Source of the DNA: Candidatus Woesearchaeota archaeon
Lineage (GTDB): Archaea; Nanobdellota; Nanobdellia; Woesearchaeales; SM23-78
Direction of reading: 5' to 3'
DNA: 32,101 nt
Assembly (NCBI GenBank): GCA_016935175.1
Contig: JAFGRK010000003.1
Coordinates: 1-32,101, forward strand
The translations under genes and the position numbers were made by a program. The notes under the pieces are model-generated. The model had not been told where the DNA came from. It searched no databases and worked only from the letters and a program-made list of their open reading frames with translations. Position 1 is the first letter of the stretch. The number at the start of each line of letters is the position of its first letter. Positions 8,508 to 28,675 of the stretch are shown piece by piece.

Positions 8508-8620
8508 AAAAAGTCGCGTGTGGGAGCCCGAAGGGCCCAACCCCACCCACAGCGACCATCGTGCAACCCATTCACACGCGTTCATGGTGTTGCACTAGGC
8601 GCTGGTCGCCGCGACTTTTT
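8508..8620 (+). ncRNA. Structured element E1: perfect three-way junction, homologous to E2 at 28576-28675
   Basis: Closing helix P1 AAAAAGTCGCG (8508-8518) / CGCGACTTTTT (8610-8620). P2 TGTGGG (8519-8524) / CCCACA (8546-8551) encloses a 21-nt core whose GCCC-GAA-GGGC (8526-8536) is a small hairpin followed by CCAACCCCA. P3 GCGACCA (8552-8558) / TGGTCGC (8603-8609); P4 GTGCAAC (8561-8567) / GTTGCAC (8589-8595); P5 CCAT / ATGG. No nucleotide is left unpaired at the junction. E2 has the same order, core length and helix lengths with compensatory changes. A and T tracts at the ends make it terminator-like, but the inside is far more elaborate than a terminator. It could be a 3' UTR of the Lrp gene, a separate small RNA, or a DNA element; a promoter for it alone is not evident. 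Confidence 0.7.
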
Positions 8621-8747
8621 CACAAAAACACTATTCCAAAACAATAAAATTTAAAAACAAAGTCCTTAAGCTAACTGGAAAAACAATATAAAATCGTCGC
8701 GAGGAGGATTTTTATTAGCTTAACGCTAAAAAACATAAAAGTCAAAG
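8621..8747 (+). promoter_or_regulatory. Promoter and leader of speD
   Basis: Candidate TATA boxes are AAATTTAAAAAC (about 8647-8658) and CAATATAAAATC (about 8686-8697). A strong Shine-Dalgarno-like GAGGAGGA (8701-8708) is 40 nt before the ATG at 8748, too far for direct use; between them TTAGC (8715-8719) and GCTAA (8725-8729) form a hairpin. No site is next to the ATG. Confidence 0.45.
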
Positions 8748-9533
8748 ATGGTAAGACTGGGAGAGCATTATTTAGTAGAGTTAGCGCGATGCGACTCTCG
8801 CGTATTATCTGATTCTGATAGTGTTGAGAATATCCTCCTTAGGGCTTGCAAGGAAGCCAATGCCCATCGCGTTGACCACAATTTCTATTCTATGCCTGAT
8901 AAAAGTGTAAGCGGAGTCATAGTGATTGAGGAGTCTCACCTCTCAATCCACACTTTTCCTGAGCAGGAGTATGCTGTTGCTGACTTCTTCACCTGCAGCG
9001 ATGCAGTGAATGAAGAGAAAGGAATAGCTTACCTGGCAGAGAAGCTAGGCTCAGGCAACTATGGCTTTAGCAGGCTGGAGCGAGGATTATTGCCATATCA
9101 CGAGATTAAAATTCCCAAGGAAGCAAAAGCAGGGCCTGAAGTGGCAGATGCCCCGACAGCCCTTAGCCACGTAATACTAGATGCATGGGGCATTAACCCT
9201 GCAAAGCTTGGAAAAAAGGAAAAGATTGAAAAGCCTTTCTTAGAGGCTGTCAGAAGCAGCGGCCAGACCATCCTTTACCATAACTTCCATGATTTCCCAG
9301 TGAATGGCGCCAGCGGGTTTGTTCTTGGGGATAAGTTCCACGCAACTGTTCACGACTGGCCAGAGCATGGCTACACAGCAATTGACATAATGGCTCGTGA
9401 AGGCAAAGTTGACGCGAATAAGATCGTAAGCTCATTGCTTAGCCAACTCCAGCCAAGGTACAATATCAAGACATCTCTTGAGAGAGGCTCACTTTACAGC
9501 CCTGGCTACAACACTCACATAAATGCTTGGTAA
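8748..9533 (+). CDS. speD: SpeD-family pyruvoyl decarboxylase with tandem domains
   Basis: 261 residues, twice the usual prokaryotic SpeD length. The first half (1-120) has all residues of self-processing S-adenosylmethionine decarboxylase: ESH with Ser63 as the pyruvoyl-forming residue, His68 and Cys83, the same numbering as the Thermotoga enzyme. The second half (about 136-250) repeats the fold: VLGDKFHATVHDWPEHGY aligns with VIEESHLSIHTFPEQEY, but the Glu-Ser is Lys-Phe and the Cys is Arg, so it cannot form a pyruvoyl group. Both halves end in LERG. Prokaryotic SpeD works as a dimer of such units; here the dimer is fused with one dead half, as in eukaryotic AdoMetDC. Role in polyamine synthesis; SpeD relatives with arginine or ornithine specificity are known, so substrate is open. 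No spermidine synthase in the window. Confidence 0.9.
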   Translation: MVRLGEHYLVELARCDSRVLSDSDSVENILLRACKEANAHRVDHNFYSMPDKSVSGVIVIEESHLSIHTFPEQEYAVADFFTCSDAVNEEKGIAYLAEKLGSGNYGFSRLERGLLPYHEIKIPKEAKAGPEVADAPTALSHVILDAWGINPAKLGKKEKIEKPFLEAVRSSGQTILYHNFHDFPVNGASGFVLGDKFHATVHDWPEHGYTAIDIMAREGKVDANKIVSSLLSQLQPRYNIKTSLERGSLYSPGYNTHINAW

Positions 9534-28575: not shown

Positions 28576-28675
28576 AAAAATCGCCGCCACCAGCCACAAC
28601 ACCGCAGACTTAATGTCAAGGTGTTTGGTGGCTTCGACGGGGGTTGCCCCCCTCGGGGTGTCGAAGGCGATTTTT
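28576..28675 (-). ncRNA. Structured element E2, homologue of E1, between P0 and P1 genes
   Basis: On the minus strand: P1 AAAAATCGCC (28675-28666) / GGCGATTTTT (28585-28576). P2 TTCGAC (28665-28660) / GTCGAA (28638-28633) around a 21-nt core (28659-28639) with CCCC-GAG-GGGG then GCAACCCCC. P3 GCCACCA (28632-28626) / TGGTGGC (28592-28586). P4 AACACC (28625-28620) / GGTGTT (28603-28598), with a 5-nt 3' bulge GTGGC. No nucleotide is unpaired at the junction. E1 has the same plan. Helices P1 and P2 differ in sequence but stay paired, and P3 swaps one G-C for C-G. It begins 34 nt after the P0 stop and ends 24 nt before the P1 start. Confidence 0.75.

Follow-up and report, generated by a model that had tools for sequence, protein, structure and literature searches.

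Is the element at 8508-8620 a structured RNA, and how far does its family extend? The window, a stretch of 32,101 nucleotides from a Candidatus Woesearchaeota archaeon, carries here and at 28576-28675 two sequences that a sequence-only reading had described as a two-member family of perfect three-way-junction RNAs. Three points decide how they should be understood: whether the fold is conserved, where it occurs, and whether it is kept as RNA or as DNA.

Two copies of the junction in the window

Both elements are present at these positions with the helices that had been described: the closing one of 10-11 bp, then one of 6 bp that encloses the core, one of 7 bp, and the inner arm. The features are as follows (type I, the arrangement in the window's genus, is set out further below).

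8508..8620, + strand: element E1, type I copy; match of 124.8 bits with covariance model R1
8508..8518, + strand: E1 closing helix P1, 5' strand; pairs with 8610-8620 (alignment A2)
8519..8524, + strand: E1 core-arm helix P2, 5' strand; pairs with 8546-8551 and covaries in the order-wide alignment
8525..8545, + strand: E1 21-nt core; hairpin 8526-8529/8533-8536 and C-rich third strand 8541-8545
8552..8558, + strand: E1 helix P3, 5' strand; pairs with 8603-8609
8561-8595, + strand: E1 inner arm
8610..8620, + strand: E1 closing helix P1, 3' strand, with T5 at its end
28576..28675, - strand: element E2, type I copy, in the spacer of the ribosomal protein L10 and L12/P1 genes
28666..28675, - strand: E2 closing helix P1, 5' strand; pairs with 28576-28585
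28660..28665, - strand: E2 helix P2, 5' strand; pairs with 28633-28638
28639..28659, - strand: E2 21-nt core, of the C-G with C class
28626..28632, - strand: E2 helix P3, 5' strand; pairs with 28586-28592

E1 has a gene for an Lrp/AsnC-type regulator on one side and one for S-adenosylmethionine decarboxylase on the other. The two 21-nt cores are identical at 16 of 21 positions, as claimed, and that of E1 is of the G-C with A class in the three-column covariation described below. The statement that no named family has this plan holds for Rfam: a scan of the window at E<=1 returned one tRNA alone, and E1 and E2 match no curated covariance model. The tRNA gene (2075-2190, + strand; 116 nt, 43.5 bits with the Rfam tRNA model), which probably has an intron, is not reported by ARAGORN run without introns.

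Folded as single-stranded DNA, E1 reaches -33.5 kcal/mol (z -5.5 against dinucleotide shuffles) and E2 -32.2 kcal/mol (z -6.5), with none of 200 shuffles as good in either case. The fold described for E1 is upheld by covariation but not by energy, its RNA minimum being another fold (-51.2 versus -45.0 kcal/mol). Folding energy was accordingly dropped as proof of structure, and covariation used instead.

Distribution of the family

A family of two members is far too small. BLAST of E1 against its own genome finds six further places, and model R1, built on five copies (E1, E2 and three BLAST relatives), finds 48 copies at E<=0.1 in the 1.22-Mb source genome (G000), 46 of them at E<0.01; there are hundreds in the order. 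The sister species G006, of the same genus, has 62 copies, G002 and G005 have 2-4, G003 has ten weak matches, and the search of G001 and G004 gave none. The expectation of further homologues in DPANN hosts was thus correct, covariance-model matches being found across the Woesearchaeota order. Many copies have extra hairpin modules, at a few fixed spots in the arms.

The core pattern is found in 103 stretches of the GTDB collection and, of the 80 listed, all but a handful are from metagenome-assembled genomes (MAGs) of Woesearchaeota or related Nanoarchaeota; a scan of the viral collection's contigs with the same pattern gave no match. A relaxed scan, using only helix P2, the hairpin pairs and four core bases, gives 92 distinct matches in 1.7 Mb of fetched loci and 0 in the reversed control. 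With the core-arm model R2 at E<=1e-4, 69 of 241 sampled genomes of the order (about a quarter) are positive, in 59 of 170 genera, and in a phylum sample of 327 genomes every one of the 37 positives belongs to Woesearchaeota's order, other orders having none. Searches of the literature for repeats of Woesearchaeota, and for junction RNAs in permuted form, turned up no relevant work.

Some arrangements of copies deserve mention. Neighbouring copies lie head to head in G000 (C1, 8520-8631, - strand, and 8649-8761, + strand) and in G006 (C26, 1557-1675, - strand, and 1676-1778, + strand), and palindromic doublets in five loci (L297, L298, L219, L042, L237), with two opposed core arms and a common outer-stem sequence, recall REPINs. 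The ten G003 matches (L046, L053, L058) have equal scores and several lie at contig ends, which suggests a recent burst breaking the assembly; these contig-end repeats were set aside as a weak-scoring relative of the same family.

Covariation of the helices and a third strand in the core

That the structure is conserved while its sequence undergoes compensatory change, as had been proposed from the two copies, is borne out by larger alignments, in which every helix covaries. Alignment A4 shows two-sided changes at 41 of 41 pairs and 90.5% pairing, against 69% when shuffled, figures which are somewhat flattering in that its 87 rows, the matches of G006, G005 and G002, were fitted to the model, some copies being read on both strands. 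In the order-wide core-arm alignment two-sided changes are seen at each of the six P2 pairs and at two pairs of the hairpin, and 97.9% of the cells are paired (71.1% shuffled).

The core also covaries in three columns. Alignment position 38 follows the pair 19-29 in 188 of 194 cases—C-G with C in 155, G-C with A in 21, T-A with T in 12—compared with a mean of 131 and a maximum of 145 in shuffles that take no account of relatedness. Outside the genus, the G-C with A class occurs in loci of five or more genomes and the T-A with T class in three or more, and a single inheritance therefore does not account for the association. Positions 20-28 and 37 are linked too, more weakly. An alternative hairpin, of GGGG with the downstream CCCC, was ruled out as the source of the third-column signal: position 38 is A, not G, when 29 is C. 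We infer that a parallel third strand (C with G-C, T with A-T) would fit either a pyrimidine triplex or, on the opposite strand, one of the purine motif. According to PMC4666352, RNA does not form triplexes of the latter kind.

One junction in two arrangements

Elements are roughly 100-200 bp long, and their two ends pair with each other. Lineages with unrelated ends have the core arm in common, that is, helix P2 and the 21-nt C-rich hairpin with its third strand. In type I, that of the window's genus, the strand begins in the closing helix beside the core arm; in type II, seen in many other families, it begins in type I's third helix and the core arm is the second branch, as in the example outer stem - GGCGGCAGACGG - hairpin - CCTAC - core arm - TCTGCGCC - outer stem. 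The cyclic order of the three junction strands is identical in both, and on our reading of the sequences the two types would be circular permutations of one three-way junction. Numerical sorting into these types is rough, with a large class left as "other". Beyond the model, pairing of the stem is on average clearly above control only at position +1, with 4-7 extra pairs in some copies. A P2 variant, CTCGGC...GCCTC(T/G), with adjacent T-C and C-T mismatches, recurs in unrelated families (e.g. L026, L052).

Signs of transposition

Flanking direct repeats scoring at least 10 are found at 12.2% of 115 copies and at 0.8% of mismatched flanks. In G083 the duplication is an exact 9 bp at three copies (CTATGCTCT, GCTAAGTCG, AGACCAACG) and decayed at a fourth, adjoining GGCTAAGTCAAG-type inverted repeats. 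Terminal inverted repeats like those of MITEs are present in three genomes, GGCTAAGTCAAGTT in G083, GGYGATGTCAACTT in G104 and GGCTCTGTTGAAAATGTCGCC in G005; in the latter two, whose repeats are different, the duplications are of 9-10 bp, and 9-10 bp is also the fixed length of target-site duplication in the type I lineages. Since these repeats differ among the three genomes, lineages with unrelated ends have the inner junction in common. No target duplications were found in type II copies, so that transposition is shown for type I only. Sites occupied in one and empty in the other occur reciprocally between G000 and G006, as is expected of MITEs.

The elements thus resemble MITEs in being short, dispersed, foldable and mostly intergenic, in their terminal inverted repeats and target duplications, and in their absence from some orthologous sites. 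Unlike MITEs, Woesearchaeota lineages with unrelated ends have a conserved inner three-way junction and core, with compensatory change in place, and no autonomous partner with the same ends was found by end-pattern search in the genomes searched. Candidate mobilising enzymes were rejected on their distribution: PF01609 (DDE_Tnp_1) is in 72 of 241 genomes, but these do not include G000 and G006, which are the two richest in copies; there the models for Y1_Tnp and IS1595 likewise have no match. Among 30 genomes checked the sole IS1595-type transposase match is in G115 (C12, 2158-2595).

Other structured repeats offer partial parallels. Bacterial repeats of the BOX, NEMIS and ERIC type are modular, intergenic and of stable secondary structure, with optional internal modules. 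The present family is likewise made of modular, structured, intergenic repeats; it differs in being archaeal, in its structure and in its two circular permutations. Integron attC sites are recombination sites active as folded single-stranded DNA, in which structure is kept over sequence. Such sites occur in archaea too (PMC9668308); unlike them, the copies here are dispersed singly, the type I copies with target duplications, and the loci read contain no cassette arrays. Rickettsia palindromic elements (PMC10969869) are also palindromic, about 100-150 bp long and able to sit in-frame in protein genes; their sequence and fold are different, and their insertion in-frame is frequent, compared with two loci among 123 copies here. 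The core has a parallel in the intrastrand triplex repeats (PIT/BoxC/TM-ECO), dispersed G/C-rich hairpins with a third strand, often in inverted pairs, in which base triples are possible on either strand (PMC4666352). TM-ECO strands are of 9 nt and the minimum of the triplex database is 6 nt (PMC4666352), whereas the core strands here, set in a three-way junction, have 4-5 nt.

Persistence of the fold after insertion

The E2 site is occupied in G000 and G006 and lacks the element in G002, G003, G004 and G005, the L10-L12 spacer of G005 being the cleanest empty counterpart. Between E2 and its G006 orthologue eight helix pairs are compensated and two lose Watson-Crick pairing, on one side only; in P2, four of the six pairs are compensated. 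Seven sites in all are occupied in both genomes, in flanking DNA about 75% identical. Five of them align clearly through the element; the other two (L074/L107 and L069/L105) align poorly and rest on position and orientation. Summed over the seven pairs, 38 positions are compensated, 153 unchanged and 41 unpaired in one copy, part of these 41 stemming from forced model positions; pairing is thus maintained, though imperfectly. Comparison at shared sites shows that the structure persists after insertion while the sequence changes. The contrary picture that the sequence-only reading had set against its own proposal, of inactive repeats scattered without conservation of structure, is correct as to the scattering, to which mobility can be added, but not as to the structure, which is conserved.

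The in-frame copies inside genes are in genes whose names we have taken from recognised sequence motifs. One locus is a presumed Bud32-like kinase gene, in which orthologous copies (L013, 1501-1613; L113, 3902-4059) lie between the catalytic-loop and DFG motifs and the frame stays open in both species. The other is a presumed HypF-like gene (L085, 16639-16751), whose copy is read in the same frame as those in the Bud32-like gene.

RNA or DNA

Helices held by RNA pairing are expected to have G-U much more commonly than A-C. Among 4640 helix cells there are 85 G-T and 92 A-C, and the wobble tolerance of a structured RNA is not seen. The helices of 45 tRNAs from the same loci have 10.6% G-U, a control for the G-U figure alone, as the tRNA program brackets no A-C pair. 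In P2 alone, with wobble given no credit, there are 5 G-T and 13 A-C; nearest-neighbour comparisons give one-sided changes to G-T in 50 cases and to A-C in 67; and nearly half of the two-sided pair changes (134 of 303) are transversions. The comparison of G-U with A-C would argue, indirectly, for DNA. Outside the genus, copies are randomly oriented to neighbouring genes (16, 19, 15, 14); inside it there is a mild sense-strand bias, the clean cases being ++33, --17, -+12 and +-5. With no wobble preference, random orientation outside the genus and mobile copies, the proposal that the elements are RNAs is not supported.

A structured non-coding RNA that spread by riding MITEs, whether small RNA, ribozyme or mRNA leader or trailer element, would nevertheless account for the strong covariation, the conserved unpaired core, the 3' U-run and the sense bias within the genus, and for two circular permutations of one junction, which recall the types of the hammerhead and twister ribozymes. 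We consider it unlikely, given that G-U is no commoner than A-C and very scarce beside the tRNAs of the same loci, that orientation is random outside the genus and that Rfam has no match. Rather less probable still is that these are old, now functionless MITE copies whose helices stay perfect through template switching between the arms of inverted repeats as DNA is replicated, or through exchange between copies. Template switching is reported to create and maintain hairpins (PMC8794818), and such a history would suit two-sided changes without wobble intermediates, the near equality of transversions and transitions, and whole helices swapped between orthologues; the conserved unpaired core bases, the triple covariation and the sharing of one junction by lineages whose ends are unrelated are left unexplained by it.

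The A5...T5 ends raise the further idea of bidirectional transcription terminators, or mRNA-stabilising 3' elements, made from MITEs. Many copies do lie some 10 nt past stop codons, and a T-run ends the outer stem on both strands. Against this, E2 stands between two co-directional ribosomal protein genes that are probably one operon, copies lie in-frame in genes, orientation outside the genus is random, and type II copies often have no T-runs; we regard this origin as very improbable.

A folded strand as the proposed conserved unit

On balance, and with modest confidence, we take E1 and E2 to be non-autonomous, MITE-like mobile DNA elements in which the folded single strand would be the conserved unit. 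In its functional form the DNA would be a folded single strand or a cruciform, extrusion taking place either on the lagging strand or through supercoiling. A putative trans-acting recombinase or host factor may recognise the element by its core arm, the outer stem having the sole task of bringing the two ends together; a stem needing only to do this would explain both the differing end sequences and the two junction permutations. The perfection of the helices probably reflects selection for the fold, aided by template-switch copying between the arms. A bolder proposal, which we advance tentatively as possible but rather doubtful, is that the elements represent a new class of archaeal mobile element, in which a conserved module of single-stranded DNA, folded as a three-way junction and having a short triplex-like core, would be recognised by a putative recombinase, hence the two permutations and the unrelated ends.

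Covariation is usually accepted as proving that an RNA is functional; the structure described here covaries strongly across a whole order and looks like a DNA structure borne by mobile repeats, and a simple comparison of G-U with A-C distinguishes RNA from DNA structure. Should recognition fall on the folded DNA, the family would point to a putative mobilising enzyme in a large group of uncultured archaea, and its marked insertion sites, about 50 per genome, with empty sites that can be dated, would lend themselves to study of how structured repeats are retained and lost.
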